Of a DNA stretch of 64,000 nt, positions 31,915 to 56,354 are shown piece after piece. Source of the stretch: Tardiphaga sp. 709 (GTDB taxonomy: Bacteria > Pseudomonadota > Alphaproteobacteria > Rhizobiales > Xanthobacteraceae). Location: NCBI RefSeq assembly GCF_032401055.1, contig NZ_CP135529.1, positions 5,144,501-5,208,500 of the forward strand, given 5' to 3'. A program made the position numbers and the translations under genes. The notes under the pieces are model-generated. The model searched no databases. It saw only the letters and a list, made by a program, of their open reading frames with translations, and was not told where the DNA came from. Position 1 is the stretch's first letter; every line of letters starts with the position of its first letter.

Positions 31915-33381
31915 TTGTCCGATCCCGTCTACGACCTCGTAATCCGCGGTGGCACCGTCGCCACATCGAGCGATGTGTTTGCCGCCGATGTCGGTATTAC
32001 CGGTGAGACCATTGTGGCGCTGGGCAGCGGACTTGCAGCGGGCCGTAAAGAGATCGATGCAACAGGCAGGCTGGTGCTGCCCGGTGGGGTCGATGCCCAC
32101 GCCCATATCGAACAGCTCTCCGCTGCCGGCATCATGAATGCCGACACCTTCGAGAGCGCGACGCGGTCCGCGGCCTTCGGTGGCACCACCAGCGTGATCT
32201 CCTTTGCCGCCCAGCATGTCGGCATGGATGTGCAGGAGGTCGTCAGCGATTATACGGCGCTCGCAAAGAAGGGCGCGATGATCGACTATGCCTTTCACAT
32301 CATCGTCTCTGACGTCACCGACAAGGTCATCGCCGACGATATTCCGGCACTGGTGAGTCAAGGCCATTCCTCGATCAAGATTTTCATGACCTATGACCGG
32401 CTCAAGGTCGACGACGAGAAGCTGCTGGATATCCTCGCCGCCGCGCGCGAGGCGAAGGCGCTGGTCTGCGTCCATGCAGAGAACCACGGTGTCATCGCCT
32501 GGATGGTGAAGCGGCTGATCGACAAGGGCTACACCGCGCCGAAATATCACGCTGTCAGCCATGCGCGTGTGTCGGAATCCGAAGCCTTCACGCGGCTGAT
32601 CGCCTTCAGTGAATTGCTCGATCAGCCCGTGATGATCTTCCACGTCTCGACGCGCGAAGGCGCCGCGGTGATCCGCGAGGCGCGCGGCCGCGGCGTCAAG
32701 ATTTTCGCAGAGACCTGTCCGCAATATCTGTTCCTCACCGCCGACGATCTCGACAAGCCCGGTGCCGAAGGCGCCAAGTGGATGTGCAGCCCACCGGCGC
32801 GCACCACGGACGATCAGGAGGCGTTGTGGCAGGCATTGTCGCTCGGCGATCTGCAACTGATCTCGTCGGACCACGCGCCCTATCGCTATGACGAGACCGG
32901 CAAGCTGCGCGCCGGGCCGAACCCGACATTCAAGCAGGTCGCCAACGGTCTGCCCGGCCTCGAAGTGCGCCTGCCACTGCTGTTCGACGCCATGGTGTCG
33001 AAAGGTCGTCTCGGCCTGTCGAAATTCGTCGAGCTCACATCCACCGCCCCGGCGCAGATCTACAATCTGCCGAAGAAGGGCTCGATCGCCATCGGCAACG
33101 ATGCCGACATCGCGATCTGGGACCCGGCGCGCAAGGTGACGCTCTCAGATGAGATGATGCACGATCTCACCGGCTTCTCGCCGTTCTCTGGCCGCACCGT
33201 CACCGGCTGGCCCGAGAAGGTGTTGTTGCGCGGTCGTGTCCTCGTCGACGGCGATACGTTCACCAGCAAGCCGGGCGAGGGGCGCCTGATGCTGCGCGAG
33301 GGCGGCAGGGCCGCCACGCCGTCAGGCAGGCTCGCCGCCGAAATGGACCCGGCGAAGAACTTCGGCGCGAAGCTGCTGTGA
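31915..33381 (+). CDS. D-hydantoinase/dihydropyrimidinase family amidohydrolase
   Basis: A 488-aa metal-dependent amidohydrolase that opens the hydantoin or dihydropyrimidine ring to an N-carbamoyl amino acid. The metal-binding HxH is in GGVDAHAHIEQ, the carboxylated lysine candidate in HSSIKIFMTY, further His ligands in VCVHAENH and MIFHVSTREGA, and the Asp in ISSDHAPY. Length is standard. Translation starts at TTG 31915 with GGAG 8 nt upstream. Its stop overlaps the start of the PLP enzyme gene (TGATG). With the carbamoylase and racemase it completes a hydantoin-to-D-amino-acid route; the natural substrate is not known. Confidence 0.93.
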   Translation: MSDPVYDLVIRGGTVATSSDVFAADVGITGETIVALGSGLAAGRKEIDATGRLVLPGGVDAHAHIEQLSAAGIMNADTFESATRSAAFGGTTSVISFAAQHVGMDVQEVVSDYTALAKKGAMIDYAFHIIVSDVTDKVIADDIPALVSQGHSSIKIFMTYDRLKVDDEKLLDILAAAREAKALVCVHAENHGVIAWMVKRLIDKGYTAPKYHAVSHARVSESEAFTRLIAFSELLDQPVMIFHVSTREGAAVIREARGRGVKIFAETCPQYLFLTADDLDKPGAEGAKWMCSPPARTTDDQEALWQALSLGDLQLISSDHAPYRYDETGKLRAGPNPTFKQVANGLPGLEVRLPLLFDAMVSKGRLGLSKFVELTSTAPAQIYNLPKKGSIAIGNDADIAIWDPARKVTLSDEMMHDLTGFSPFSGRTVTGWPEKVLLRGRVLVDGDTFTSKPGEGRLMLREGGRAATPSGRLAAEMDPAKNFGAKLL

Positions 33382-34496
33382 TGACAAACATGCTCGATCC
33401 CAATCTGCCGGGTTTCGCGGATATCCAGACGCCTGCGCTGGTGCTGGATGCGTCTGCGCTTCAGCGCAACATCCAGGGGATGGCCGAGTTCGCCAAAGCG
33501 AACGGCGTTGCGCTTCGCCCGCATGCCAAGACTCATAAGTCGACGCGTATCGCGCAATTGCAGATCGAGGCCGGCGCCGTCGGGATTTCCTGCGCGACGG
33601 TTGCCGAGATCGAGGCTTTCGCGCAGGCCGGTATCACGGGTCTGCTGCTGACGACACCTGTCGCCGATCGGCCGAAGCTCGCGCGTCTGGCCGCTGTCGC
33701 CGACCAATCCGATATTAATATCGTCGTCGACCATGCCGACCAGATTCACGTGCTGCACGAATTGCTCGATGCCGGCAGCCGTCCGCTGCAGGTGCTGATC
33801 GATATCGATGTCGGCCAGCGCCGCACCGGTGTTGTTGACACAGCATCGACACTCGCGCTTGCGCAACTGATCGAAGCGACGCCGGGCATGACATTCGGTG
33901 GCATCCAGGGTTTCGCGGGTCATGTGCAGCACATGATCGATGCCCAGGAGCGCAGGGCAGGCGCTGCGCGCGTGCGCGCCATGCTCGACGACCATCTGCA
34001 TGTGCTGACGGAAGCCGGCATCAAGGCGGAGATCGTCACCGGCAGCGGCACGGGCGCCTGCGCTTATGATGTCACGGGCACCTTTACGGAGTTGCAGGTC
34101 GGCTCCTATGTCTTCATGGATTCCGACTACGGCAAGCTGGAGCACGAGGGTGCTGCGCTGCCTTACGATCCAAGTTTGTTTATTCTCGCGACGGTCACGT
34201 CGGTGAATCGTGCCGGCGAGTTCACGGTGGATGCCGGCGTGAAGGCAATGGCCTTCAACGGCCCGGTGCCGTCGCTGATGTTGGGTGTGCCGGAAGGTTC
34301 GACCTATCGCTTCGGCGGCGACGAACACGGCATGATCACGCTGCCGGAGGGGGCCGAAGCGCCGAAGCTCGGCAGCCGCGTGCTGCTGCTGACGACCCAT
34401 TGTGATCCCACGGTGAACCTGCATGGGAGCTATCAGGTGGTCGGGCACAATGGCAGCGTCGAGGCGTGGCCGGTGCTGGCGCGGTATGGGGCGTAG
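33381..34496 (+). CDS. DSD1 family PLP-dependent enzyme (D-threonine aldolase/D-serine dehydratase-like)
   Basis: A 371-aa protein with the alanine-racemase-type TIM barrel. It begins DIQTPALVLDASALQRNIQGM, and the PLP lysine is Lys50 in RPHAKTHKS. The C-terminal metal and active-site part includes DEHGMITLP and LLTTHCDPTVNLHG, the His/Cys zinc site of this family. Members cleave or dehydrate D-3-hydroxy amino acids. The ATG at 33381 overlaps the hydantoinase stop by one base. It may process the D-amino acid released by the carbamoylase, which would suit a hydroxylated side chain; this is inference. Confidence 0.88.
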   Translation: MTNMLDPNLPGFADIQTPALVLDASALQRNIQGMAEFAKANGVALRPHAKTHKSTRIAQLQIEAGAVGISCATVAEIEAFAQAGITGLLLTTPVADRPKLARLAAVADQSDINIVVDHADQIHVLHELLDAGSRPLQVLIDIDVGQRRTGVVDTASTLALAQLIEATPGMTFGGIQGFAGHVQHMIDAQERRAGAARVRAMLDDHLHVLTEAGIKAEIVTGSGTGACAYDVTGTFTELQVGSYVFMDSDYGKLEHEGAALPYDPSLFILATVTSVNRAGEFTVDAGVKAMAFNGPVPSLMLGVPEGSTYRFGGDEHGMITLPEGAEAPKLGSRVLLLTTHCDPTVNLHGSYQVVGHNGSVEAWPVLARYGA

Positions 34497-34676: not shown

Positions 34677-35384
34677 CTAATGCGTCCCGCCCAGAAACGC
34701 CTCCGACAATGTCGGATCGTTGATCAGCGCTTCCGCCGAACCTGACGTCACCACGCGTCCGGTCTCCAGCAGATAGGCCCGGTCCACGATCTTCAGCGTC
34801 TGCCGGGCCTTCTGCTCCACCAGCAATACCGTCAGGCCTTCATCGCGGAATTGCGCGATCATGCTGAACAGGCTCGCCGTCATCAGCGGGGCCAGGCCGA
34901 GCGACGGCTCGTCGAGCAGCAGCAGCTTCGGCTTCGACAGCAGCGCACGCCCGATGGCCAGCATCTGCTGTTCGCCGCCGGAGAGCAGACTGGCGAGACC
35001 GTCGCGGCGCTTGCCGAGAATCGGGAAGCGCTCCAGCATCTTGTCCACATCGGCCATCGCGGCAGACTTGTCGCTGCGGGTGTAGATGCCCATCAGCAGA
35101 TTCTCATGCACCGTCATGCGCGCGAGAATGCCGCGGCCTTCCGGCACCAGCGCGATGCCGCGGCGCAGATTCTTTTCGGCCGCATTCGGCACGAGCTTCT
35201 CACCCTGATAGGTGATGTCGCCCTGGAATGGCAGCAGTCCTGCAATGGACCGCGCAATCGTGCTCTTGCCGGCGCCATTGGCGCCGAGCAGCGCGACGAT
35301 CTCGCCTTTCTTGATCTCCAAATCGACGCCGCGCACTGCCGTGATGGCGCCGTAGCGGACCTGCAAGCCTCGGATCGTGAGCAT
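34677..35384 (-). CDS. Liv-type ABC transporter ATP-binding protein (LivF-like)
   Basis: A 235-aa ATPase of the branched-chain/amide uptake family. Motifs are Walker A LLGANGAGKST, signature LLSGGEQQMLAIGRAL and Walker B LLLLDEPSLGLAP. The N-terminal RYGAITAVRGVDLEIKKGEIVALLGANGAGK and the lack of the LivG insert identify the LivF type. The start overlaps the LivG-like stop (TGATG). It is the last gene of a five-gene importer operon that starts at 39163. Confidence 0.95.
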   Translation of the reverse strand: MLTIRGLQVRYGAITAVRGVDLEIKKGEIVALLGANGAGKSTIARSIAGLLPFQGDITYQGEKLVPNAAEKNLRRGIALVPEGRGILARMTVHENLLMGIYTRSDKSAAMADVDKMLERFPILGKRRDGLASLLSGGEQQMLAIGRALLSKPKLLLLDEPSLGLAPLMTASLFSMIAQFRDEGLTVLLVEQKARQTLKIVDRAYLLETGRVVTSGSAEALINDPTLSEAFLGGTH

Positions 35385-36136
35385 CAGTCGTCCTTTCCGA
35401 GATAGGCGTCGAGGACGACCGGGTTGGCGCGCACGTCCTCGGGCCTGCCTTCGGCGATCAGCACGCCGAAATCGAGGACATAGAGATAGTCGCAGAGCCG
35501 CATCACGAAATTCATGTCATGTTCGATCAGGAGAATGGTGAGGCCGGTGTCGCGCAAGCGGATCATCAGCGCGCGGATCTCCTCGGCCTCGTCGTGGTTC
35601 ATGCCGGCCACGGGTTCATCCAGCAGCAGCAGCTTCGGCTTCGCGGTGACGGCGCGCGCCATCTCCACCTTGCGCTGGATGCCGTAGGGCAGCGACTTGG
35701 CCGGGCGGTCGCGCAGTTCGGTGAGGCCGAAGAACTCCATCACTTCCTCGGCGCGCTCCTGCGCCGCCGGATTGGCCCAGGAGATCGGCAGCAGACGTCG
35801 CCACGCGCTCTCGCTGTGCGGCTGCGCCACCAGTAGATGTTCCCAGACCGTCATGCTGCCGAACAGCCGGATGTTCTGGAAGGTGCGGGCAATGCCCTCG
35901 CGCACGATACGATAGGACGGCCACTGCGTGACGTCGACGCCCTTGAGTTTGACTTCGCCGGCATCGGCGCGATAGGCGCCGGTAATGGTGTTGAACAAAG
36001 TCGTCTTGCCGGCGCCGTTCGGGCCGATCACGCCGACGATCTTGCCTTCCGGCACTTCGCAGACCATTCCGGACAGCGCGTGGATGCCGCCGAACGTCTT
36101 GGTGACGTCGGTGAGTTGAAGCAGCGCGTTGCTCAT
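35384..36136 (-). CDS. Liv-type ABC transporter ATP-binding protein (LivG-like)
   Basis: A 250-aa ATPase with Walker A VIGPNGAGKTTLFN and the LivG-type insert (GIARTFQNIRLFGSMTVWEHLLVAQ). The signature motif reads LPYGIQRKVEMARAV, not LSGGQ; this degenerate form is normal for LivG. Walker B is LLLLDEPVAGMNHDE. The ATG overlaps the LivM-like stop by 4 nt. It forms a heterodimer with LivF under the LivH/LivM permeases. Confidence 0.95.
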   Translation of the reverse strand: MSNALLQLTDVTKTFGGIHALSGMVCEVPEGKIVGVIGPNGAGKTTLFNTITGAYRADAGEVKLKGVDVTQWPSYRIVREGIARTFQNIRLFGSMTVWEHLLVAQPHSESAWRRLLPISWANPAAQERAEEVMEFFGLTELRDRPAKSLPYGIQRKVEMARAVTAKPKLLLLDEPVAGMNHDEAEEIRALMIRLRDTGLTILLIEHDMNFVMRLCDYLYVLDFGVLIAEGRPEDVRANPVVLDAYLGKDD

Positions 36137-36969
36137 GCCGCGGCCCTCCGGAAGGTCAGCGTTCGGATCAGTGAACGATCGAGAATGCCTTGACGCCGTA
36201 CGAGCAGCACGACGATCAGCAGCGTGCCGAAGGCGGCGAGGCGCCAGTCGGCGATGGGGCGCAGGAATTCAGGCAGGAACACCAGAAGGAGAGAACCGAC
36301 CAGCGAGCCCGGTCCGACGGTGGAGCCACCGAGGATCACGGCCAGCACGAATTCGATCGAGCGATCGAAGCCGAAATTCGCCGGCTCGATATAGACGTTG
36401 TGATGCGCGAACAATCCGCCGGAGATCGCGGCCACCGCGGCGCCGACACCGAAGGCGCCGATCTTGGTCACCGTTGTGTTGAGGCCGATCAGGCCCGCGG
36501 CGGTTTCGTCATCATGCACCGCCTGCATTTCCAGCCAGACGCGCGAACGCTCCAGCAGCATCACAGCGATCAGGATGCCGCCGGCCCACAGCCAGACATA
36601 ACCAACCGAGATGTGCTGCATGCCGCGATAGCCGCCAGAGCCGCCCATCGCGTCGAAATTGAGAAAGAAGCTGCGCACCATTTCGCCGAAGCCGACGGTG
36701 GCCATGGCGAGATAGATGCCCTTCAGCCGCAGCGCGGGGAAGGCAACGATGGCGCCGATGATGCCGGCGGCGATCGCCGAGATCAGCAGGGCCAGCGTCA
36801 GCGGCACGTTCAGCGCGACGGTGAGCCAGGACGACAGATACGCGCCGATTCCCATGAAGGCGCCGTTGCCAAGCGAGAGCTGGCCGGTGGCGAGGATGAT
36901 ATAGACGCTGAGTGCGCCGAGCAGGAGAATGCCGGACTCGGCGAGCAGGCTTGCATAATAGGTCGACAT
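36133..36969 (-). CDS. Liv-type ABC transporter permease (LivM-like)
   Basis: A 278-aa inner-membrane permease with about eight to nine helices (for example ILLLGALSVYIILATGQLSLGNGAFMGIGAYLSSWL). The LivM motif GSGGYRGM and the C-terminal EFVLAVILGGSTVGPGSLVGSLLLV are visible. It starts at an ATG that shares one base with the LivH stop and overlaps livG by 4 nt. It makes the channel with LivH. Confidence 0.93.
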   Translation of the reverse strand: MSTYYASLLAESGILLLGALSVYIILATGQLSLGNGAFMGIGAYLSSWLTVALNVPLTLALLISAIAAGIIGAIVAFPALRLKGIYLAMATVGFGEMVRSFFLNFDAMGGSGGYRGMQHISVGYVWLWAGGILIAVMLLERSRVWLEMQAVHDDETAAGLIGLNTTVTKIGAFGVGAAVAAISGGLFAHHNVYIEPANFGFDRSIEFVLAVILGGSTVGPGSLVGSLLLVFLPEFLRPIADWRLAAFGTLLIVVLLVRRQGILDRSLIRTLTFRRAAA

Positions 36970-37847
36970 CAGACGCGCTGCCCCTGATCGGATCGCGCGC
37001 CGCCAAGCAGGCCCTGCGGACGCAGCAACAAAATCAAAATCATGAAGCCGTAGACGACGAAGTCGCGGACCTGAGAGCCGCCATAAGCGACGGTCAGCAC
37101 TTCGGCGATGCCGATCAAGGGACCCGCGACCAGCGCGCCCCAGATCTGGCGGGTGCCGCCGATCACCATCACGGCGATGGCCTTGAGGCCGATCTCGACG
37201 CCGAGATAGGGCGTGATGGTGCCGTAATGCAGCGCGATCAACACGCCGGCGACGCCGGCGAGCGAGCCCGACAGGATGAAGGCCAGCATGGTCAGGCGGT
37301 CGGCGGAGACGCCCAGGATTCGTGCGACTTCGCGATTCTCGGCGACGGCGCGCAGCGCGCGGCCCATCGGGGTCTTCTGCACGATATAGGCAACCAGCGC
37401 GACCAGAACGACGGTGGCAACGAGCACGATCAGCTGCATCTCGCCGATATTGACCGGGCCGAGCGAATATTGCTTGCCGAAATATTCGTCGGGGAGCTGG
37501 GCAGGATCCGAGCCCCAGATGTTGGTGGCGACATTCTGCAGGATGATCGAGAAACCCAGCGTTGATAGCATCGGCGTCACCAGCGGCGCGTCGCGCAGCG
37601 GCTGGTAGCCGATCTTCTCGATGGCGATGGCGATCACGGCTGCGCCGAGCATGCCGCCGAGTACGGCGACCGGAAGCGGGAAGCCTGCGGTAATCAGCGT
37701 GAAGCCGAGATAGCCGCCGATCATGAAGAGTTCGGCAATCGCGAGATTGAGAATGCCGAGAATGCCCATCACGAGCGAGAACGACAGCGCCAGCAGCGTA
37801 TAGACCGCTCCGAGCGTCAGGCCGTTGACGAGTTGCTGTATCAGCAT
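36969..37847 (-). CDS. Liv-type ABC transporter permease (LivH-like)
   Basis: A 292-aa permease. It starts LIQQLVNGLTLGAVYTLLALSFSLVMGILGILNLAIAELFMIGGYLGF, the standard LivH opening. The later MGRALRAVAENREVARILGVSADRL is the conserved cytoplasmic loop that touches the ATPases. It is separated from the binding-protein gene by 89 bp that contain a strong hairpin, so permease levels are probably lower than binding-protein levels. Confidence 0.95.
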   Translation of the reverse strand: MLIQQLVNGLTLGAVYTLLALSFSLVMGILGILNLAIAELFMIGGYLGFTLITAGFPLPVAVLGGMLGAAVIAIAIEKIGYQPLRDAPLVTPMLSTLGFSIILQNVATNIWGSDPAQLPDEYFGKQYSLGPVNIGEMQLIVLVATVVLVALVAYIVQKTPMGRALRAVAENREVARILGVSADRLTMLAFILSGSLAGVAGVLIALHYGTITPYLGVEIGLKAIAVMVIGGTRQIWGALVAGPLIGIAEVLTVAYGGSQVRDFVVYGFMILILLLRPQGLLGGARSDQGQRV

Positions 37848-37936: not shown

Positions 37937-39163
37937 TCAGCAGGCCGGGTGGCCGGGCGCCGAGCTGCAACCCTTGACCTTGGTATCCCAGGCGCCGTTC
38001 TGACCCTGCAGCACGTAGAAGGCCTTGATCGCGTCGCCGTCGTCATTGAAGCCGATCGGGCCGCCGAGACCGGCAAAGCCTTCGAGCTTGGCAAGGTGAT
38101 CGCGGATCTTGGTGCGGTCGGCTTCGAGATCGGCCGGCTTGCCGGTGACGCCAGTCTTCTTGATCGCGTCGATATACATCGAGACGATCTCGTAGATGTT
38201 GGCGTCATACATCGAGGGCTCGATGTCCTTCGGCAGGCCGGATTCCTTGCGCAGCAGCGGCGTCAGGGTTGCCGTGAACTTCTCCGGTGCCGGGCCTGTC
38301 ATGGTGGCGTAGAAGGTTGCCGGCGCGATCACCGGGATTTCCGGCGCAGCCTTGAGAATAGCCGAAGAGATCAACTGGGTGGCGCCGACGACCGGCTTGA
38401 TCAGACCCTGGCGCTTCATTTCGCGCAGCACGGTGATGGCCTGGCTGTAATCGGCGCTGACAACGACGCCGTCGGGATTCAGGGCCTTCAGCTTGGTGAC
38501 CTGTGCGGACACGTCGAGGTCGCCGGTGTTGAACGACAGCAGATCGTTCTCGTTGGCAACGATGATGTCATTGGCCTTCAGCACGGCCGGCATGATCACC
38601 TTGCCGACGGTGGACGCCGTGGCGTCCTTGGCGTCGAAGATCACGGCGACGGTCTTGATGTTGAAGGCCTTCTTGTAGAAGGGCACGGTGGTCTTGGCGA
38701 GAACGCCTTCGTCGATGGTGTTACGGAACGCCCACGGACGGTTGAGCTTCGCCACGCCCGGCTTCGAGGAGGCCTGCGAGGTGGAGACCACTTTCATCTC
38801 ATTGGCCACCGGGAAGGTCACTTCGGCGGCGCTCGAGGTCAGCGGACCGGCCACGGCGAGAACCTTTTCGTCGCCGGCCAGCTTGCGCAGCGAGCTTGCG
38901 GCCTGGGCCGGCTTGGCGGCGTCGTCGAGAATGGTGATCTTCAGCTTGGCGCCATTGATGCCGCCGGCATCGTTGGTCTGCTGTTCCAGCATCTTCAGCG
39001 TCACGGTGTTGCTGCGGCCCCACTCGGCGAACGGACCGGAGCTTGGCACCACCGCACCGATGGCGATTTCCTGCGCCCATGCCTGACCGCCAACCATGGC
39101 GGAGAGCGTGACGGCGGCAACTGTGCCCAATACGCGCGGCAAATTCGATTTGATCCGTGACAT
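37937..39163 (-). CDS. Liv-type ABC transporter substrate-binding protein
   Basis: A 408-aa periplasmic binding protein of the Peripla_BP_6 family. The signal peptide runs SNLPRVLGTVAAVTLSAMVGGQAWAQ. The mature start EIAIGAVVPSSGPFAEWGRSN and DDAAKPAQAASSLRKLAGDEKVLAVAG are typical of branched-chain amino acid, amide or aromatic-acid binders. I chose the ATG at 39163 with AGAGGA 6 nt upstream; the longer frame to 39295 puts 44 residues before the signal peptide. It is the first gene of the importer operon. A 23-bp palindrome shared with the monooxygenase and PF06684 promoters lies 177 bp upstream, linking this importer to that catabolic set. Confidence 0.94.
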   Translation of the reverse strand: MSRIKSNLPRVLGTVAAVTLSAMVGGQAWAQEIAIGAVVPSSGPFAEWGRSNTVTLKMLEQQTNDAGGINGAKLKITILDDAAKPAQAASSLRKLAGDEKVLAVAGPLTSSAAEVTFPVANEMKVVSTSQASSKPGVAKLNRPWAFRNTIDEGVLAKTTVPFYKKAFNIKTVAVIFDAKDATASTVGKVIMPAVLKANDIIVANENDLLSFNTGDLDVSAQVTKLKALNPDGVVVSADYSQAITVLREMKRQGLIKPVVGATQLISSAILKAAPEIPVIAPATFYATMTGPAPEKFTATLTPLLRKESGLPKDIEPSMYDANIYEIVSMYIDAIKKTGVTGKPADLEADRTKIRDHLAKLEGFAGLGGPIGFNDDGDAIKAFYVLQGQNGAWDTKVKGCSSAPGHPAC

Positions 39164-39339: not shown

Positions 39340-39362
39340 AATAGTTCTCTTAAGAAGCTAAT
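39340..39362. promoter_or_regulatory. putative MarR-type operator, site 1 (Liv importer promoter)
   Basis: AATAGTTCT-CTTAA-GAAGCTAAT matches the palindrome AATAGCTTC-N5-GAAGCTATT at 14 of 18 arm positions and has the same 9+5+9 geometry as sites at 40414 and 44057. It lies upstream of the importer binding-protein gene. Regulator assignment to one of the two nearby MarR proteins is inference. Confidence 0.6.
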
Positions 39363-39611
39363 TTATGCGGCAGTGCGGCCCGGAAATGCAGCAATCCGCG
39401 GCGGGCGGGAATGCGCGCAACTGCCTGTTTCACGGGTGTTTGAATGTTGCGGGCGCGTCGGGGCTGATTCCCGTGTCGCCGGTGGGCGGGCAGGGGCTGC
39501 ACGCACGGACGCCGTTTTGTCGCAGCAATGGCGACCCGGGCTGTGGCTATCCCGGGGCCTTGGCCGGGCGCAACAGCCGGTCCTGGCGCGTGTACAGATT
39601 CTAGCCCGGAT
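39363..39611. other. intergenic region between the importer and the first MarR gene
   Basis: GC-rich stretch with small open frames on the plus strand whose products (Cys/Gly/Arg-rich) show no family, signal or membrane features. I see no RNA gene or clear terminator here. Confidence 0.3.
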
Positions 39612-40298
39612 TCAGCCCTTGCGCGGCTTGCCGCGCTTGGCGACGGCGATTGAATGCGCCTCGGGCGAGAGCTGCTTCACATTGGTGTCGGCCAGATAAC
39701 GCTGCAGCGCAATGGCGCGGTCGCTGGAATCGACGAGCCGCTGCACCATGTCCAGCAACTGGTGGAATTCCCGGGTGCCGAGGCAACCGAACTGGACATC
39801 GTTGACCTGGGCCTGGGTGGGGGCGAGGCGTTCCAGCAATTCGGCGCCATGCGGTGTCACCACGAGGCTGATACGGCGGCGGTCGCCGGTGTGCGAGGTC
39901 TTGGTGATCAGCCCTTTGGTTTCGAGCTTGTTGGTCACGGTGGTGACGAAGGCTCCACTCAGATGCAGGTGATCGGCGACGGCGCGCACGTGGACGTCGC
40001 CTTGCGCCGACAGGTGCCGGATCGAAATCAGGGTCGTGTATTCAATGCCGGCGAGGCCGATGACGGCGGCATGGCCTTCACGCAATGTCTGGTGGCGGAC
40101 CAGGAAGCCGAACAGGCTGTGAACGAGGCGGCGGAACTGGGCATCCGAACCGTCCACCAGTAGCTCCGGACGGGACACCGTGAGTGCAGCGCGGGAGGCC
40201 GGCCGGCCCGTGGCAGGCTTCTTGCTGATCTCCTTGCCAACGGACTTGCCGATCACTGATTTGCCGATCGAAGTGGAGCGCGCTGCGGATTTGGCCAC
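39612..40298 (-). CDS. MarR family transcriptional regulator (paralogue 1)
   Basis: A regulator of about 228 aa. A basic N-terminal tail precedes the winged-helix core: ELLVDGSDAQFRRLVHSLFGFLVRH, then IGLAGIEYTTLISIRHL, the recognition region VADHLHLSGAFVTTVTNKLETKGLI and the wing GDRRRISLVVTPHGAELL. GTG 40298 is preferred, with GGGAT upstream and a length close to its paralogue at 44146-44826; a start at 40361 is possible. It is divergent from the HpaB-like gene, with operator site 2 between them. MarR proteins usually repress catabolic genes until an aromatic or other ligand binds. Confidence 0.9.
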   Translation of the reverse strand: MAKSAARSTSIGKSVIGKSVGKEISKKPATGRPASRAALTVSRPELLVDGSDAQFRRLVHSLFGFLVRHQTLREGHAAVIGLAGIEYTTLISIRHLSAQGDVHVRAVADHLHLSGAFVTTVTNKLETKGLITKTSHTGDRRRISLVVTPHGAELLERLAPTQAQVNDVQFGCLGTREFHQLLDMVQRLVDSSDRAIALQRYLADTNVKQLSPEAHSIAVAKRGKPRKG

Positions 40299-40397
40299 GT
40301 GATGATCCCATGTATCAAAACTTGCCCGAGCTTGGCGGCTTCGTGAGCTAATTGCAATCACGACGAGCGATGCAAGGTGCGAATGCCACAGGTCCGC

Positions 40398-40436
40398 TTG
40401 ACAACGGATTTAAAATAGCTTCGGATGATAGCTATT
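40398..40436 (+). promoter_or_regulatory. putative promoter and MarR-type operator, site 2 (HpaB-like gene)
   Basis: A perfect -35-like TTGACA (40398-40403) is followed at 40414-40436 by AATAGCTTC-GGATG-ATAGCTATT, which matches the shared palindrome at 16 of 18 arm positions. The operator would cover the spacer and -10 region of the monooxygenase promoter. The exact -10 hexamer is unclear. Confidence 0.65.
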
Positions 40437-40484
40437 AATGAAGATGACCGGCGCGCCGCCGGCAGCAGGTGACGGAGAAAAGTG

Positions 40485-41993
40485 ATGAACAAGGCATTTG
40501 GATCCGGGGCGGCAGTGGCCGGCGTCAAGAATGGCGCCGAGCATGTCGCCGCTGTGCGCGACGGTCGTGCGGTCTATCTCGACGGCAAGAAGGTCGACGA
40601 CGTCTCGACCCATCCGGCCTATCGCCATGCGGTCGCCTCGGCCGGCGCGCTGTATGACTATCAAGCCGACCCCGCCAATATCGAACGCATGACCTTCGAT
40701 ATCGGCGGCGGCCGCCGCGTCAATCGCGCCTGGCAATTGCCGACGAGCTACGCGGAACTGGTCGAGCGCCGCAAGGCGCTGGTGGAATGGGCTGAGCTGT
40801 CCGGCGGTTTCCTCGGCCGCTCGCCCGATCACGTGGCGTCATCCATGTCCGGCATGATGATGGGCATCGAGGTGTTCGACAACTACGATCCGAAACGCGC
40901 GCAGGCGTTCCGCGACTGGTACGACTACGCCCGCAAGAGCGACCTGTTCCTGACCTATGTGATCAACAACGTGCAGGGCGACCGCTCCAAGGCGTTCGGC
41001 GATCAGGGCAAGAATGCCCAGGACATGGTCGCGCACATCGTCGACGAGGATGCATCGGGCATCACCATCCGCGGCGCCAAACTGTTCGCCACGTCAGCCA
41101 TCATGGCCAACGAGATCTTCGTCGGTTCCGGCCAGCCGCTGCGGCCGGGCGAGGAGCATCTGGCGTTCTCCTGCGCGCTGCCGATGGGGATCAAGGGCCT
41201 CAAGATGCTGTCGCGCAAGAGCTTCGAGGCCCATGCGCCGAACGAGTACGACAATCCGCTGGCCTATCGCTATGACGAGAACGACGCGCTGGTGTTCTTC
41301 GACGACGTGAAGGTGCCATGGGAGCGCGTGTTCCTGCTCCGCAACACCGATATGTGCCGCGCCCAGCTCCATGATACGCCAGCCCATGTCTATCAGAACT
41401 ATCAGGCGCAGATCCGTCTGTCGGTGAAGCTGCGTTTCCTGGTCGGCCTTGCGCGCGGCATCGCCAAGACCATTGGCACGATCAATTTCCCGCCCGTGGT
41501 CGATACGCTCGGCAAGCTGGCCTCGCAGGCAGCGCTGATCGAGGGCATGGTGCTGGGCATGGAAGCCGGAGGCGCGATGCGCGGCGAGTATTTCCTGCCG
41601 AACAAGCATCTGCTCTATGCGGCGCAGGTGCAATCGCAGGAGATGTATCCGCAGATCATCTCGACCATCCGCGAACTCGCTGGCGGCGCGCTCTTGATGC
41701 TGCCGTCCTCGGTAGATGATTTCAGCAATCCGGAAATCGCCGACATTATCGGGCTGACCCAGATCTCGCCGGCGATGTCGGGCCAGGACCGCGTCAAGCT
41801 GCTGAAGCTGACCTGGGACGCCGTCGGCTCCGAATTCGCCTCGCGCCATCTGCAATACGAGATGTTCTATGCCGGCGCCCAGTTCGTCACCCGCGGCCAC
41901 AGCTATCGCACCTATGACTGGGAGCGGGCGGGCGGCATGGCCGAGAAGATGACGGGGAAGTATGATTTGCCGGAGTTCGGTGGGGCGAAGTAA
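40485..41993 (+). CDS. HpaB-type flavin-dependent monooxygenase (4-hydroxyphenylacetate 3-hydroxylase family)
   Basis: A 502-aa oxygenase component of a two-component flavin monooxygenase. It has the acyl-CoA-dehydrogenase-like fold of the HpaB family: N-terminal YRHAVASAGALYDYQ, central DEDASGITIRGAKLFATSAIMANEIFVG, VKVPWERVFLLRN, and a C-terminal helical part including REFAGG-like RELAGGALLMLPSS. Family members hydroxylate phenols, and some act on pyrrole-2-carboxylate; they need FADH2 from a separate reductase. No HpaC-like reductase is in the window. Site 2 of the MarR-type operator lies just upstream. ATG 40485 is used; GTG 40482 is in frame. The true substrate is unknown. Confidence 0.88.
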   Translation: MNKAFGSGAAVAGVKNGAEHVAAVRDGRAVYLDGKKVDDVSTHPAYRHAVASAGALYDYQADPANIERMTFDIGGGRRVNRAWQLPTSYAELVERRKALVEWAELSGGFLGRSPDHVASSMSGMMMGIEVFDNYDPKRAQAFRDWYDYARKSDLFLTYVINNVQGDRSKAFGDQGKNAQDMVAHIVDEDASGITIRGAKLFATSAIMANEIFVGSGQPLRPGEEHLAFSCALPMGIKGLKMLSRKSFEAHAPNEYDNPLAYRYDENDALVFFDDVKVPWERVFLLRNTDMCRAQLHDTPAHVYQNYQAQIRLSVKLRFLVGLARGIAKTIGTINFPPVVDTLGKLASQAALIEGMVLGMEAGGAMRGEYFLPNKHLLYAAQVQSQEMYPQIISTIRELAGGALLMLPSSVDDFSNPEIADIIGLTQISPAMSGQDRVKLLKLTWDAVGSEFASRHLQYEMFYAGAQFVTRGHSYRTYDWERAGGMAEKMTGKYDLPEFGGAK

Positions 41994-42010
41994 GGCGAAA
42001 GCCCCTCAGC

Positions 42011-42156
42011 TGTCATCCCCGCGAAGGCGGGGATCCATACACGCTGAAATACTGGTTGAAGCGTCGTAGGTGTGGCTGTGCCAGAGCTTTAATTTCGACG
42101 ATGGTGGCTATGGGTCCCCGCCCCGCGCGCGCCTTCGGCGCGCTAGGCGGGGACGA
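42011..42156. repeat. intergenic palindromic repeat, family D
   Basis: GTCATCCCCGCGAAGGCGGGGATCC near 42012-42035 and GGGTCCCCGCC with GGCGGGGACGAC near 42112-42156 form mirrored ends, and GCGCGCCTTCGGCGCGC forms an inner hairpin. The element separates the convergent monooxygenase and enamidase genes and could terminate both. Similar repeats are common in this bacterial family (from memory). Confidence 0.65.
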
Positions 42157-42171
42157 CGCCTGCGAGTGTCT

Positions 42172-43371
42172 CTAGTGCGCCGCCGCGCCCGAGAAATCCC
42201 GCGGCAATCTCGTTTCCGCCACGCGAGCATTCCGCATCCCCGCTGGCGTATTCCGGCTGCGGCCGACAAAGCGCGGCACGCCGTCGGTGATCACGGCGCT
42301 CACCGCCGGCACGTCGCCATTGCGGAGCGCCGAGAGTGCATCGTCCTGCGAGCCGCCGGCGCAGGCGTCGATCAGCACCACGTCGGCATCCTTGCCGGTC
42401 TTCAGAAATCCGTTGTTGAGCCGATAGACCGTTGCATTGTTGCCCGTCGCCGCCGCGATCGCCTGTTCCGGCGGCATGCCGCCCAGGCTGGCGAGATGGC
42501 TGATGGTGTAGAACATGCCGAGCGGCATGATCCCGCTGCCGGTCGGCGTGTCCGTCGCGATCAGCAGGCGCTCCGGCTGTTTGGCCTCGTCGAGCAGCTT
42601 CGCCGTCAGCAGCGCGGTGCGCAGATTGCCGGCGGTGCAGAGCTGCAGCGCGATGTCGCTCTCGTTCACGAGCCGCGCAAAGCCGGCTTCCGGCATCGCC
42701 ACCGGTCCGCCATTGACGTGAAACGACACGCTCGGATTGGACTTCAGCACATGTTCGGCCCAGATACCCGATGATCCGGGGATCGATGAGCCGCCGGTAT
42801 GCATGGTGGTGACCATGCCGAGCTTGCGTGCGGCGAGCATCAACGGCGCATAGTCGAATGGCGTCTCGAACGCGCCGAAGCCGGCCTTGGCGAGCCACAG
42901 GCCCGCTTTGACCAGTTCTTCCAGATCGGCCTCTGTGAGTCCCGGCTCGAGGATGATCGAGCCGGCATGCACGCGCATGCCGCCGGGGCGATAGTCGAGA
43001 AAACAGGCGCGCGCCGCCAGTGCCAGCGCCTTCACGCCCGCGGGATCCTTGGGGCGTCCGGGCACATGCACTTCGGACGCGGTGATCGACGTCGTGGTGC
43101 CGCCATGCACGTAGCTTTCGAGATAACCGACGACGCGCTGCCGCGGCGTGTAATCGCCGAAGGTGATGTGCACATGGCTGTCGATCAGGCCGGGAATCGC
43201 TGTGGTGCCGGCAGCATCGATCACCACATCGGCCGATGACACCTGGTCCGATGACAACGTGCCGATCGCGCTGATGCGCCCGTCCTGCATCAGGATGCCA
43301 TCGCCGTCGGCGAACGGCGTCTTGAGATCGCCGGTGACGATGGTGCCGATATTGACGATGGCCGTTTTCAT
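42172..43371 (-). CDS. enamidase-like amidohydrolase
   Basis: A 399-aa metal-dependent amidohydrolase. It begins MKTAIVNIGTIVTGDLKTPF, with the HxH metal motif in GLIDSHVHITFGDYTPRQ, then HVPGRPKDPAGVKALAL, TTMHTGGSSIPGSS, FHVNGGPVAMPE and ATDTPTGSGIMPLGMF. This pattern strongly recalls enamidase from Eubacterium barkeri, which hydrolyses the cyclic enamide 1,4,5,6-tetrahydro-6-oxonicotinate in nicotinate breakdown (match from memory, not searched). GGAG lies 6 nt before the ATG at 43371. It follows the PF06684 gene by 49 bp on the same strand. In this aerobic context the natural substrate may be another lactam or enamide. Confidence 0.85.
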   Translation of the reverse strand: MKTAIVNIGTIVTGDLKTPFADGDGILMQDGRISAIGTLSSDQVSSADVVIDAAGTTAIPGLIDSHVHITFGDYTPRQRVVGYLESYVHGGTTTSITASEVHVPGRPKDPAGVKALALAARACFLDYRPGGMRVHAGSIILEPGLTEADLEELVKAGLWLAKAGFGAFETPFDYAPLMLAARKLGMVTTMHTGGSSIPGSSGIWAEHVLKSNPSVSFHVNGGPVAMPEAGFARLVNESDIALQLCTAGNLRTALLTAKLLDEAKQPERLLIATDTPTGSGIMPLGMFYTISHLASLGGMPPEQAIAAATGNNATVYRLNNGFLKTGKDADVVLIDACAGGSQDDALSALRNGDVPAVSAVITDGVPRFVGRSRNTPAGMRNARVAETRLPRDFSGAAAH

Positions 43372-43420
43372 ACCCGTCTCCGCAATCTCAAGGCCGTCCA
43401 AGGCCGCACGAAGCTGCAGC

Positions 43421-44002
43421 CTAGCGCAAGCCGTCCTTGCCGCCGATATCCCTCGCATTCAATCCGCCGACCCGCGCATTGAGCCGCCCGCGATTGGCGA
43501 GACAGACGATCAGCGCAACTTCATCGGCGGTCGGCGCGTCGGGTGGCAGTGTCACCGAGACGCCGTCGTAATGCGAGCGGACATAGAGCGCGTCCTTATG
43601 CGCCAGGGGAACATCGATCAGGCAGCCGGGGGCCGCGAGCTTGGTGAAAGAGGGGATCCAGGCTTCGGCGCCGCCCACGGCCTCGCGCAGCGGCGTCGCG
43701 AAAGTCGTGGTCAGCATCGCATTGGCGTGTTCGAGTTCGCCGCCGAGGCCGACAACGCCGCCTTTGCCGTAGCTCTCGACCTTGTATGACCCCATCGCCT
43801 CGACGGCGAGCTTCGCCAGCACGGCGCCGACCTCGACGCTGGCAGCGATCGCTTCGGAGAGGTCCTCGACATAGCGCCCGGCATAGGGATTGGCGACGAT
43901 GGCCACGGCGGTGACGCGGCGCAGCGGCTGCTCGTGCCGGTGGCCGGCCTCGACCTCCTTGTGGTCGGTGAAGCAGAGCAGGCGCCTGATATCGAGTTTC
44001 AT
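43421..44002 (-). CDS. PF06684 (AA_synth/BB2672-type) family protein
   Basis: A 193-aa protein with MKLDIRRLLCFTDHKEVEAGH, AIVANPYAGRYVEDLSEAI, MGSYKVESYGKGGVVGLGGELEHANAML and AHKDALYVRSHYDG, the pattern of the 'amino acid synthesis' family PF06684. The name is historical; structures of this family show a chorismate-mutase-like fold and the reaction is not established, as far as I know. The ATG has GGAGA 6 nt upstream. It heads the operon with the enamidase-like gene and is divergent from the second MarR gene, with operator site 3 in the gap. Context suggests it acts on the same ring compound. Confidence 0.83.
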   Translation of the reverse strand: MKLDIRRLLCFTDHKEVEAGHRHEQPLRRVTAVAIVANPYAGRYVEDLSEAIAASVEVGAVLAKLAVEAMGSYKVESYGKGGVVGLGGELEHANAMLTTTFATPLREAVGGAEAWIPSFTKLAAPGCLIDVPLAHKDALYVRSHYDGVSVTLPPDAPTADEVALIVCLANRGRLNARVGGLNARDIGGKDGLR

Positions 44003-44056
44003 GATGTTCTCCCGTCAGATTTGGCGCCGATCCTGACGCAGTAAATGCGTTTGATC

Positions 44057-44079
44057 AATAGCTTCGTTTAGAAGGTATG
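44057..44079. promoter_or_regulatory. putative MarR-type operator, site 3 (PF06684/MarR divergent promoter)
   Basis: AATAGCTTC-GTTTA-GAAGGTATG matches the shared palindrome at 16 of 18 arm positions with the same geometry. It covers an ATG at 44077, which is another reason to place the MarR start downstream at 44146. It would control both divergent transcripts, with autoregulation of the MarR gene. Confidence 0.62.
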
Positions 44080-44145: not shown

Positions 44146-44826
44146 ATGTCTCGTTCCAAGGTTGCGCCGCTCTCCAAGACGCCGGCACTGCGTAAATCCG
44201 AAAAGCCTGAGGTGAAGACGGGAGCCAAAACTGCGCTCAAGGCGAAACTTCCGGCACCGGCGCTGACCACGTCGCGCAAGGCGCTGCTGGTCGATGGCTC
44301 CGATCATGCATTCCGGCAACTCGTGCACACATTGCTGGCGTTCCTGGCGCGACACGAGACCGTGCGCGAGGGGCATGCCGCCGCGATCGGCTTGGCCGGG
44401 ATCGAATACACCGTGCTGATCTCGGTCAAATATCTGGCCGCCGAAGGCGATGTCAGCGTGCGCGAACTCGCAGCGCATCTGCATCTCAGCGGCGCTTTCG
44501 TCACCACAGTGTCCAACAAGCTGCAGCAGATGGGCCTGCTCGACAAGCTCGTGGATCCCGCCGATCGCAGGCGCCTGCGTCTCATGGTGACGCAGGCTGG
44601 CGATGCGTTGCTCGCAAGCCTCAATCCGACGCAGCGTCAGGTCAATGACGTGCAATTCGATTGTCTCAACGCGGACGAATTTCATCAATTGCTGGGGAGC
44701 GTCGAACGCCTCGTCGAATCCAGCGAGCGCGCCATTGCGCTGCAACGCTATCTGCAGCCGCGTGGTCCGGATACTCCGGCACCATCGCGTGGCGACGACA
44801 GGCCCGCACGCCGCAAAAAGATATAA
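44146..44826 (+). CDS. MarR family transcriptional regulator (paralogue 2)
   Basis: A 226-aa regulator with the same architecture as the MarR protein at 39612-40298: basic tail, ALLVDGSDHAFRQLVHTLLAFLARH, IGLAGIEYTVLISVKYL, recognition region LAAHLHLSGAFVTTVSNKLQQMGLL, then a wing with DRRRLRLMVT. The shared segment LHLSGAFVTTV is identical in both, and the C-terminal halves also align (QVNDVQF, EFHQLL, SSERAIALQRYL). The start at 44146 is chosen because the ATG at 44077 lies inside the putative operator; GGGAAG stands just upstream. The two paralogues flank the monooxygenase, enamidase-like and PF06684 genes and may bind the same site type. Confidence 0.9.
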   Translation: MSRSKVAPLSKTPALRKSEKPEVKTGAKTALKAKLPAPALTTSRKALLVDGSDHAFRQLVHTLLAFLARHETVREGHAAAIGLAGIEYTVLISVKYLAAEGDVSVRELAAHLHLSGAFVTTVSNKLQQMGLLDKLVDPADRRRLRLMVTQAGDALLASLNPTQRQVNDVQFDCLNADEFHQLLGSVERLVESSERAIALQRYLQPRGPDTPAPSRGDDRPARRKKI

Positions 44827-44952: not shown

Positions 44953-46134
44953 ATGTCCCAGCTTGATGCATCCCCAACGCCGCAACCGGCGCCGTCACAA
45001 CCTGTTGCGCCGCCACCGGTGCAACCGGCTACGCAACCGCCCGCGCAGCCTGCTGCGCTGACGCCCGCGCAGCTAGCGTGGCGTCGTCTTGCGATTCCGC
45101 TGCTGGCCGTTGCTGCTGCGCTTGTCTTCATCGTTCTGGCCACCACACGCTGGGACATCTGGATGGGCAACCGCGCGGTGCAGACCACCAACGATGCCTA
45201 TATCCGCGCGCAGACGACGCGGCTGTCGAGCCGCGTGGCCGGTGCCGTGAAAGCCGTGCCGGTGAACGACTTCCAGCACGTCAAAGCCGGTGATCTGCTG
45301 ATCCAGATTGATCCCGCGGATTACGAGGCGCAGGTGGCGCAGGCCGAGGCGGGAGTCGCCGGCGCACAGGCGGCGCTGGACAATCTCGCCAACCAGGTCG
45401 AGCTGCAATACGCCACCATCGCGCAGGCCGAGGCGCAGCGCGTGTCTGCGCAAGCGCTCGAAGTGCAGGCGCAGCAGGAGAAGGAACGCCAGGCCTCGCT
45501 GACGCAGACCGAGGCCGGCACGCGGCAGCGCTTCGAACAGGCGACCGCCGCCTATGCCAAGGCGCAGGCCGATGTGAAAGCAAGTGGCGCAGTGATCGCC
45601 GCCCAGAAGCATCAGCTCGAAGTGCTCGCCGGCACGCGCAAGCAGCGCGCCGCCGATCTGCTCGGCGCCAAGGCGACGCTGGACGCCGCCAAGCTGCGCC
45701 TCGGTTATACGAAGATCGTGGCGCCCTTTGATGGCGTGGTCAGCGAGCGTCAGGTGCAGCCGGGCGATTACGTCAATATCGGATCGAGCCTGATCAGCAT
45801 CGTGCCGCTGCCCGAGGTCTATGTGATCGCCAATTTCAAGGAAACGCAGCTCACGCGCGTCAAGCCCGGCCAGCCCGTCGATATCGTCGTCGATACGTTT
45901 TCGGCGGAGACCTTGCGCGGCCGCGTGGAGCGGGTCTCGCCGGCGTCGGGGTCACAATTCGCCTTGCTGCCACCGGACAACGCCACCGGCAATTTCACCA
46001 AGGTCGTGCAGCGCGTGCCGGTCCGCATCACGCTCGACAAGGGGCAGCCGCTGCTCGACCGGTTGCTGCCGGGCATGTCGGTGACCGCCAGCATCAACAC
46101 CGACGCGCCGGCGGCCGGCAATGGCGGAAAGTAA
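44953..46134 (+). CDS. HlyD/EmrA family membrane-fusion protein
   Basis: A 393-aa periplasmic adaptor of a tripartite efflux pump. The N-terminus is an unusual Pro/Gln-rich stretch (about residues 5-40), then one membrane helix (LAIPLLAVAAALVFIVLATT). The lipoyl-like half-domain has QTTRLSSRVAGAVKAVPVNDFQHVKAGDLL. A long coiled-coil hairpin rich in Gln/Ala (about 120-240) follows, and the second half-motif reads LGYTKIVAPFDGVVSERQVQPGDYV. It overlaps the MFS gene by 14 nt. EmrA-type proteins export aromatic and hydrophobic compounds. Confidence 0.93.
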   Translation: MSQLDASPTPQPAPSQPVAPPPVQPATQPPAQPAALTPAQLAWRRLAIPLLAVAAALVFIVLATTRWDIWMGNRAVQTTNDAYIRAQTTRLSSRVAGAVKAVPVNDFQHVKAGDLLIQIDPADYEAQVAQAEAGVAGAQAALDNLANQVELQYATIAQAEAQRVSAQALEVQAQQEKERQASLTQTEAGTRQRFEQATAAYAKAQADVKASGAVIAAQKHQLEVLAGTRKQRAADLLGAKATLDAAKLRLGYTKIVAPFDGVVSERQVQPGDYVNIGSSLISIVPLPEVYVIANFKETQLTRVKPGQPVDIVVDTFSAETLRGRVERVSPASGSQFALLPPDNATGNFTKVVQRVPVRITLDKGQPLLDRLLPGMSVTASINTDAPAAGNGGK

Positions 46135-47707
46135 GGTCATCGAAAGCGGCCCGGTCTCGACCGGGGGCGTTTCGCACCATCCGATCTTTGCGGTCGGCGC
46201 GGTGCTGCTTGGCGCGTTCCTCGCCAATTTCGATACACGTATCTTCTCCATCGGCCTCGCCGATCTGCGCGGGGCGCTGGGGCTGAGTTTCGATGAAGGC
46301 GCGTGGCTGTCCACGGCGGGCACCGCGTCGCAGATCTTCATCGCGCCGGCGGTGGCCTGGATGGCTACCGTATTCGGGCTGCGCCGCGTGCTTGGCGTTC
46401 CCGCTCTGGTCTATGCGGCGATCTCGCTGGTGATCCCGCTGGTGCGCGACTACAATCTGCTGCTGGTGCTGAACATCGTGCACGGCATGCTGCTCGGCAC
46501 CTTTGTGCCGGCAACGCTGCTGATCATCTTTCGCAATCTGCCGATGCAATGGTGGCTGCCGGCCATTGCGATCTATGCCATCCGCGTCGGCTTCTCGCTC
46601 AATTCCGGCACCGCGCTGGTCGGCTTCTATGTCGATCACCTCGGCTGGCAGTGGATGTTCTGGCAGGACGTCATCATCGCGCCGCTGCTCGCGCTGTTCG
46701 TCTGGCTCGGCACACCGCGCGAGCCGGTCAACCGGTTCGTTCTATGCGAGGCCGATTGGGGCGGCATGCTCTTGCTCGGCACTGGCATGGCGATGATCTA
46801 TGCCGGGCTGGATCAGGGCAATCGGCTGGACTGGCTCGGCTCGGGCACCGTGGTGGCGCTGCTGTCAGGCGGGACGGTCCTGACCGTCGGCTTCTTCATT
46901 AATGAGTCGCTGGTCAAGCGGCCATGGGCCCATGCCGAAGTGCTGCTGTCGCGCAATATCGGCCTCGCGCTGTTGACGATCATTCTCTACACCTTGACCA
47001 GCCTGTCCAATTCGTCGCTGGCGCCGAATTTCTTGACCAACATCGCGCAACTCCGGCCTGAACAGTCCGGCATGTTGTTTCTGCTCTACGCCGTCGTGCC
47101 GATGATCGTGCTGGTGCCGCTCTCGATCTGGCTCATTCGCTACTACGATGTAAAATTGACGCTGATCATCGGGCTCGCTGCATTCGCCGGCGCGGCCTTG
47201 CTGGGCACGCAACTCACCCATGAATGGGCGCTTGGCGATTTCATCCCGATGGTGTTGCTGCAATCGCTCGGGCAGAGCTTCACGCTGCTCCCCATCATCA
47301 TTATCGCATTGTCGAATTCCGATCCCTCGCGTGCCACGGCCTTTGCAGCCTATATCCAGGTGATGCGGCTCGGCGGCGCCGAGATCGGCATTGCGCTGAT
47401 GGGCACCTGGCTGCGCGTGCGCGAGCAGATCCATTCGAATCTGCTTGGCCAGCATGTCGCCAGCGGCGATGCCGATGTCGTTGGCATTCTTGCCAAACTC
47501 ACCGGGCGTTTCGCCAGCCATGGTGAGGGTCTCGCACAAGCGCGCGGCATTGGCACGCTCGCAAGCCTCGTGCAGCGCGAAGCCAATACGCTGGCCTATA
47601 TCGACGGCTTCTGGCTCACCTTCTGGTTCGCGATGGCGGCGCTGATCGTCGTGTCGTTGATCGGCAATGCGCCGAAGGGACCGTTCACGCCGAAGCCGCG
47701 GGGGTGA
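46121..47707 (+). CDS. DHA2 family MFS drug efflux transporter (EmrB-like)
   Basis: A 528-aa inner-membrane exporter with about fourteen helices, the DHA2 pattern. Early sequence VLLGAFLANFDTRIFSIGLADLRGALGLSFDEGAWLSTAGTASQIF corresponds to helices 1-2 of EmrB homologues. A cytoplasmic-side GTPREP follows helix 6. It starts inside the adaptor gene (14-nt overlap), so the two are translated together. Its relation to the preceding MarR gene is positional only; I saw no copy of the 23-bp operator between them. Substrates are unknown. Confidence 0.93.
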   Translation: MAESKVIESGPVSTGGVSHHPIFAVGAVLLGAFLANFDTRIFSIGLADLRGALGLSFDEGAWLSTAGTASQIFIAPAVAWMATVFGLRRVLGVPALVYAAISLVIPLVRDYNLLLVLNIVHGMLLGTFVPATLLIIFRNLPMQWWLPAIAIYAIRVGFSLNSGTALVGFYVDHLGWQWMFWQDVIIAPLLALFVWLGTPREPVNRFVLCEADWGGMLLLGTGMAMIYAGLDQGNRLDWLGSGTVVALLSGGTVLTVGFFINESLVKRPWAHAEVLLSRNIGLALLTIILYTLTSLSNSSLAPNFLTNIAQLRPEQSGMLFLLYAVVPMIVLVPLSIWLIRYYDVKLTLIIGLAAFAGAALLGTQLTHEWALGDFIPMVLLQSLGQSFTLLPIIIIALSNSDPSRATAFAAYIQVMRLGGAEIGIALMGTWLRVREQIHSNLLGQHVASGDADVVGILAKLTGRFASHGEGLAQARGIGTLASLVQREANTLAYIDGFWLTFWFAMAALIVVSLIGNAPKGPFTPKPRG

Positions 47708-56314: not shown

Positions 56315-56354
56315 CGTTGAACGCTTCAAATATCTTTGCTACAAAGGAATTAAG

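Follow-up and report, generated by a model that had tools for sequence, protein, structure and literature searches.

Three short dyads precede three sets of catabolic genes in a 64,000-bp stretch of Tardiphaga sp. 709 DNA (contig NZ_CP135529.1, positions 5,144,501 to 5,208,500; this whole stretch is called the window below), raising the question of whether these genes are controlled together and by which regulator. The genes are those of a Liv-type importer, an HpaB-type flavin monooxygenase component (HpaB1) and a PF06684 gene divergent from a MarR-type gene (MarR2); another MarR-type gene (MarR1) is divergent from hpaB. Judged from sequence and its comparison across relatives, the dyads are quite likely operators for repressors of one MarR branch encoded alongside them (MarR1 and MarR2, with MarR3 elsewhere in the genome), which a ligand would release as it does other catabolic MarR proteins. 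The best reading of the system would be an ordinary MarR de-repression regulon, a familiar type of switch, and a new example of such control because Bacillus and Variovorax already offer cases of several related MarR-type repressors that act on linked genes.

The sites were inspected directly and share a 9+5+9 geometry. AATAGTTCTCTTAAGAAGCTAAT at 39340-39362 matched 14 of 18 arm positions, and AATAGCTTCGGATGATAGCTATT at 40414-40436 and AATAGCTTCGTTTAGAAGGTATG at 44057-44079 each matched 16 of 18, as the original prediction had placed and counted them. That the sites precede the importer, the monooxygenase and the PF06684/MarR pair was likewise borne out by the gene families and by the gaps. 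Site 39340 is 176 bp from the chosen livK ATG (39163), site 40414 is 52 bp from the listed MarR1 start (40361) and 48 bp from the hpaB ATG (40485), and site 44057 is 54 bp from the PF06684 start (44002) and 66 bp from the chosen MarR2 ATG (44146). The MarR2 frame has a further ATG at 44077, within site 44057, and 44146 is the likelier start because the ATG at 44077 is out of the MarR2 frame in L015 and L016 (L and G numbers are our handles for loci and genomes). Scanning with up to three mismatches to the 9+5+9 pattern gave exactly two matches in the window (40414 and 44057), none in 100 dinucleotide shuffles of it, and four places in the whole genome (6.36 Mb), two of them in the window; a reversed control pattern gave two places in the same genome scan. 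A looser 14-base pattern matched 24 places genome-wide, which were scored with a weight matrix made from 34 training sites hand-picked from relatives' loci, with near-duplicates dropped and the own genome excluded. The window sites ranked 2, 3 and 6 and the MarR3 site ranked 1, a ranking that is partly by construction because the training set holds copies of three of these four sites (two window sites from L017 and the MarR3 site from L018). The set also holds the sites of L149-L151 (genomes G001, G015 and G002) and L048; the scores of all these training loci are not independent. With these ranks, the motif does not occur simply at random positions across the genome.

Site 39340 alone is not significant, a 14/18 match being weak when taken singly. 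A further 14/18 match lies at 33355, within an open frame of the window, and the left arm of site 39340 is degenerate; both facts would suit an arrangement in which only 40414 and 44057 work as operators, while 39340 arose by chance or has decayed and the importer stands outside the circuit. We regard this as improbable, since livK is preceded by a dyad with that degenerate arm in both Tardiphaga and Bradyrhizobium. Site 39340 was credited as a third operator because the dyad recurs about 150-240 bp before the livK match in relatives, specifically in L014-L017 (Tardiphaga-type), L018-L021 and L032 (Bradyrhizobium) and L149-L151 (a second Tardiphaga clade).

Orthologous genes in Tardiphaga, Bradyrhizobium and several Acetobacteraceae also have the motif in their upstream DNA. 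An HpaB search of the genome contigs found 238 relatives, and the best 80, representing 79 loci, were retained. These 79 loci held 51 sites matching at least 14 of 18 positions in 52 kb of upstream DNA, spread over 20 loci and not amounting to 51 independent events because many of the loci are closely related, and 11 outside upstream DNA. Sixty permuted arms gave a mean of 0.37 in upstream DNA, with the two largest counts at 10, from an arm almost identical to the motif, and 7. L014-L017 have all three sites ahead of the orthologous genes; the five Bradyrhizobium loci again have those of livK and hpaB, plus a related one preceding PF06684. Alignment of the hpaB upstream regions of 12 loci gave a mean column identity of 50%, with 16 of the 23 site positions invariant and three more nearly so. 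Among 18 genomes of the genus, five have the window-type arrangement (G000, G003, G004, G008 and G017); sites of the 40414 and 44057 types are present in all five, and two-mismatch matches were confined to them. In G001, G002, G005, G006, G010 and G015, relatives of MarR1 and MarR2 are adjacent and divergent. The intervening DNA holds a site with a score of 20 or more in every one of the six except G006 (9.7 at best); among the other five, G005 and G010 alone are independent because G001, G002 and G015 supplied training sites. The same motif is therefore found before linked operons and kept in relatives, as in a shared-operator regulon, without being universal.

The proposal that the two MarR paralogues are candidate regulators gains comparative support from the co-occurrence of this MarR branch and the motif in other families of the order. 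MarR1 and MarR2 score above the Pfam cut-offs of PF12802 and PF01047, showing that the MarR winged-helix domain is present, and the site is placed divergently at MarR1, MarR2 and MarR3. A MarR1 relative at E <=1e-25 was found in 17 of 199 genomes of the window's order, own genome included, and the other 16 genomes yielded 18 loci from other families of the order, with proteins 36-49% identical to MarR1. These loci are independent of the weight matrix apart from L176, and all but L185 have an HpaB-type gene. A 23-mer scoring at least 20 was present within 450 bp upstream of the MarR gene in 13 of the 18 and anywhere in the locus in 15. Some are copies (L176 of the training locus L048, L184 of L085 and L192 of L059); the upstream count is 12/17 without L176 and 11/15 without all three. 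In the rest, L182 scored 18.4 and L192 16.9, L180 and L193 have a site only about 800 bp off, and L189 is without upstream DNA. As controls from the own genome, six unrelated MarR loci scored at most 10.3 and seven other reductase or HpaB loci (two overlapping) at most 4.3. The sites could instead belong to an unrelated regulator with the MarR genes as mere neighbours, and a distant porin gene with a conserved TAGCTA-type dyad speaks for this, but in the loci examined the motif tracks the MarR branch and not HpaB or reductase genes generally. The third HpaB-family gene of the genome has its own reductase, and neither of the two has a site (L196, L203), which also argues against an unrelated regulator and leaves that explanation very improbable.

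If the MarR branch does provide the regulators, MarR1 and MarR2 should read the same sites because their recognition helices are nearly identical (GAFVTTVTNKL and GAFVTTVSNKL, differing by one Thr/Ser); the proteins share 67% identity over 165 residues. A lesser but real possibility is that one MarR alone serves all three sites, the other having specialised (on the efflux pump, for instance) and having little or no affinity for them. Neither MarR2 nor a pump was seen in the Bradyrhizobium loci retrieved (L018-L021 and L032), yet the hpaB and livK sites remain there, and the MarR2 branch of the tree comprises five Tardiphaga-type rows only. The Variovorax iad locus provides a precedent, its second MarR being called non-IAA-binding in the available part of the report (PMC9613470). 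Against a single active MarR stand the near-identical helices and the second Tardiphaga clade, in which five of six genomes have a site in the stretch that separates MarR1 from the divergent MarR2. Joint use of the sites by both paralogues thus stays our preferred reading. Helix type also varied with the arm sequence in 40 distinct hand-picked sites scoring at least 20, with lower-scoring rows and repeats dropped. T occupied the ninth arm base in 40/50 arms beside Glu-type helices versus 12/30 beside Val-type helices (Fisher p = 5.5e-4, a value that overstates the case because the sites were hand-picked and are related by descent).

The position of site 40414 would suit steric repression. TTGACA at 40398-40403 would, with the usual spacing, place the hpaB -10 inside the dyad, and 10 of the 12 aligned hpaB upstream regions have CTTGAC at a distance of 11 bp ahead of it. 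The dyads are intergenic inverted repeats and a terminator-like hairpin lies at 40447-40463 on the minus strand, 10 bp from site 40414, as might be expected of RNA elements or terminators rather than protein sites. That explanation is next to negligible, as the hairpin overlaps no site, a single hairpin is fewer than the 2.8 expected from shuffles, and the dyads have A+T-rich arms of conserved sequence located in divergent promoter regions.

Several observations weigh against MarR operators as the general explanation. The promoter scan found no sigma-70-like promoter above threshold. Of all loci scored, 67 of 112 MarR rows (many redundant) reached 20 within 450 bp and 45 did not. Pseudolabrys-type and some Bradyrhizobium loci (L038, L047, L051, L052, L056, L060, L061 and L066) are among those below 20 and do carry Liv, HpaB, amidohydrolase and PF06684 genes; in loci with the same catabolic genes but no site, the operator is changed, moved or absent. 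In L041, L043 and L045 the MarR gene is not divergent and the site precedes hpaB instead, and one of the six MarR3 relatives in other genomes of the genus (L124) reached 10.5 only. High-scoring sites elsewhere in the genome, at 1071358, 1376552 and 115724, stand at genes not obviously of the pathway. The degenerate left arm of site 39340 belongs with these points, as does the presence of seven flavin reductase-family genes in the genome, which gives HpaB1 several possible partners.

In the mechanism that we propose, MarR dimers would sit on the dyads as long as no inducer is present and would thereby shut off livKHMGF, hpaB, PF06684-enamidase and the MarR genes themselves at their promoters. 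The MarR proteins would be released by an aromatic substrate, probably an N-heterocyclic one, or by an early metabolite, and release would jointly induce uptake, oxygenation, ring-amide hydrolysis and probably EmrAB-type export. MarR1 and MarR2 would both act on the same sites. The original prediction of a single control circuit for uptake, oxygenation and hydrolysis was supported, and its scope appears wider, probably including the efflux pump behind MarR2. Beyond the two MarR proteins of that prediction, the circuit probably also takes in a third MarR, encoded far from the window together with a flavin reductase and another HpaB.

MarR3 lies at G000:C1:3705946-3706467, 1.5 Mb from the window, and is 44% identical to MarR1. 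Its divergent promoter carries TATAGCTTTGTTATAAAGCTAAT, the top-scoring of the 24 whole-genome matches, and downstream of this site are a flavin reductase-like gene (PF01613), an HpaB relative (HpaB2) and a cupin-like gene below the Pfam cut-off. HpaB2 (L108:7258-8755) is frameshifted and split over two frames in the own genome; one frame spans the whole gene in G001 and G017. For the MarR3 relatives L120-L123 and L137, from five further genomes of the genus, the sites score 28-34. A two-component flavin monooxygenase depends on a reductase, and none was recognised beside HpaB1. None of the seven PF01613 genes is in the window, and one is in the MarR3 operon behind the matching site. The MarR3-linked reductase is a plausible partner for HpaB1, not the sole candidate, and the HpaB1 reductase may come from this operon, which has a related operator. 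In Bradyrhizobium a MarR3-type block adjoins PF06684 and extends into a gene for a UbiX-like flavoprotein, after which a further site precedes UbiD. G017 has both UbiX and UbiD; neither was found in the MarR3 stretch retrieved from the own genome. The long stretches fetched for L149-L151 have a site before livK and a second before a D-threonine-aldolase-like gene (L149:18292, L150:3596 and L151:18309), whose window counterpart is at 33378-34496. In relatives the circuit probably also takes in UbiD and this gene; in the window, the matrix scan found no site at 31780-31960 (AmH2/AGrac), upstream of the gene pair that includes the D-threonine-aldolase-like gene.

The gene families of the window (Table 1) suggest what the circuit may serve. 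HpaB1 scores above the cut-offs for PF11794 (HpaB_N) and PF03241 (HpaB), showing that the two-component flavin monooxygenase domains are present, and below those of both 4-hydroxyphenylacetate 3-monooxygenase models (TIGR02310, 270.8 vs 885.2; TIGR02309, 263.3 vs 480.2). The PF06684 and amidohydrolase genes likely form one operon. Enamidase, in the available excerpt of its report, hydrolyses a cyclic enamide in nicotinate catabolism (PMC7356986), and an enamidase-like hydrolase together with an oxygenase suggests an N-heterocyclic pathway substrate. The crystallographers of PF06684 place it, in the part of their report available, only broadly in amino-acid metabolism (PMC2954203). Behind MarR2, the EmrA-type gene is probably co-transcribed with it and the transporter that overlaps its end would be EmrB-like by its place; between MarR2 and the EmrA-type gene no terminator or promoter was found in the scan and the matrix scan found no site. 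At 54728-59628, three family 5 solute-binding protein genes stand in tandem, followed by dipeptide-type permease and ATPase genes.

Table 1. Sites and genes of the proposed regulon and its surroundings (window coordinates)
Feature	Position	Strand	Basis
LivF-type ATPase	34677..35384	-	PF00005; best NCBIfam model LivF, under its cut-off
LivG-type ATPase	35384..36136	-	PF00005, PF12399
LivM-type permease	36133..36969	-	PF02653
LivH-type permease	36969..37847	-	PF02653
LivK-type substrate-binding protein	37937..39163	-	PF13458; start chosen in analysis
Operator-like dyad before Liv-type importer	39340..39362		14/18; recurs upstream of livK in L014-L021, L032, L149-L151
MarR1	39612..40361	-	PF12802, PF01047
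TTGACA, possible -35 element of hpaB	40398..40403	+	sequence; CTTGAC kept in 10/12 aligned
Operator-like dyad between divergent MarR1 and hpaB	40414..40436		16/18; 16/23 positions invariant, 3 nearly so, in 12 aligned
HpaB1, HpaB-type oxygenase component of two-component flavin monooxygenase	40485..41993	+	PF11794, PF03241; PDB relatives
Enamidase-like amidohydrolase	42172..43371	-	PDB 2vun E 8.3e-102; PF01979; start chosen, frame open to 43458
PF06684 (DUF1185) protein	43421..44002	-	PF06684; structures 2qtp, 3byq
Operator-like dyad between divergent PF06684 gene and MarR2	44057..44079		16/18; recurs in G003, G004, G008, G017
MarR2	44146..44826	+	Pfam MarR domains; start by frame comparison
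EmrA-type adaptor	44953..46134	+	TIGR00998 best, E 5e-76, under cut-off; over cut-off of general adaptor TIGR01730
Major facilitator superfamily (MFS) transporter, overlaps EmrA-type gene end	46121..47707	+	PF07690
Possible fourth site (weak), upstream of family 5 solute-binding protein gene	56329..56351		AATATCTTTGCTACAAAGGAATT; overlaps Shine-Dalgarno-like AAAGGA

The system resembles known MarR systems in part. In the EmrR/MprA system a MarR gene stands directly before the EmrA adaptor and MFS transporter of EmrAB, as MarR2 does; MarR2 is far under the MprA cut-off (31.6 vs 157) and its operator type is common to catabolic genes. The nicotinate enamidase (PDB 2vun) is a close homologue of the hydrolase in the site-44057 operon, which differs in being paired with an oxygenase. 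The published systems that follow are compared as they appear in the available excerpts of their reports. HpaR of Escherichia coli W and Yersinia pseudotuberculosis is a MarR repressor of the hpa-meta operon, beside 4-hydroxyphenylacetate genes, and one of its sites overlaps a -10 (PMC7180172). It differs in its reported hpaG1 sites (TTAA-N4-TTAA) and in gene content, and MarR1 and MarR2 are below the HpaR model cut-off (TIGR02337; 37.7 and 25.4 bits vs 121.2). The GbsR/OpcR/YvaV proteins of Bacillus subtilis are related MarR-type repressors whose target sets of uptake and synthesis genes overlap, with a duplicated regulator beside a duplicated transporter; the GbsR and OpcR operators differ in sequence and spacer, whereas the Tardiphaga sites share one geometry (PMC7396694). 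The Variovorax iad auxin locus, from a plant-associated bacterium, is likewise catabolic and encodes a pair of MarR regulators (PMC9613470). Auxin degradation was suggested by the two MarR genes, the Liv importer and the Bradyrhizobium relatives, and was set aside because IadDE is a Rieske dioxygenase and the window enzyme is HpaB-type. The annotated window genes include no Rieske or Iac gene, although no search aimed at these families was made. The 4-hydroxypyridine (kpi) pathway is a loose parallel only, through an amidohydrolase 28% identical to enamidase in the material available. No published description of the motif was recognised in a literature search that left out most subscription journals.

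Other sites scored highly. Site 56329 scored 21.9 (20 block shuffles gave no value above 16.6), was the fourth-best matrix match of the window and is kept in four related genomes (L155-L158). A site-like dyad is also present about 300 bp upstream of a related family 5 solute-binding gene in G001, G005 and G015. The porin gene (PF07396) at G000:C1:1071358 (L100, L204-L211) is preceded by a TAGCTA-N7-TAGCTA-type dyad in 8/8 of the loci retrieved, which represent both Tardiphaga clades and include the own genome (15 genomes had matched), with scores of 17.9-31.8 and a varying centre; it may be a further regulon member or the site of another regulator. At G000:C1:115724 (L094, L212-L216), AGCTTTG-N3-CAAAGCT lies between a flavin mononucleotide (FMN) reductase gene (PF03358) and a gene that by eye looked pyruvate-dehydrogenase-like, and was found in five of eight loci fetched, all five from genomes of a single clade (own genome, G003, G004, G008 and G017; not G016, G001 or G005). 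The high-scoring site before a TonB receptor (G000:C1:1376552), kept in G004 and lost in G017, G003 and G008, was treated as chance, and the genome match at 4729554 was discarded for its low score (10.1).

A broader picture is possible and is offered tentatively. WTAGCTTY-N5-RAAGCTAW could be the operator code that marks off one MarR branch, found alongside two-component flavin monooxygenases in several families of the order to which the window belongs, probably Hyphomicrobiales, and in some Acetobacteraceae. The three Tardiphaga paralogues would share this code, joining the importer, HpaB1, enamidase, exporter, remote flavin reductase and possibly an outer-membrane porin; one reductase operon may serve two oxygenases, and the Val/Glu helix change may tune the inner arm base. 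The points of interest are the breadth of conservation and an operator common to paralogues. The locus provides a regulator-operator pair open to testing, for an oxygenase cluster that many Alphaproteobacteria have, and a natural set of repressor duplicates that seem to have retained one operator. The operator can be used to locate pathway genes that lie elsewhere, the distant flavin reductase being one example, and is of help in narrowing down what the PF06684/enamidase/HpaB cluster acts on.

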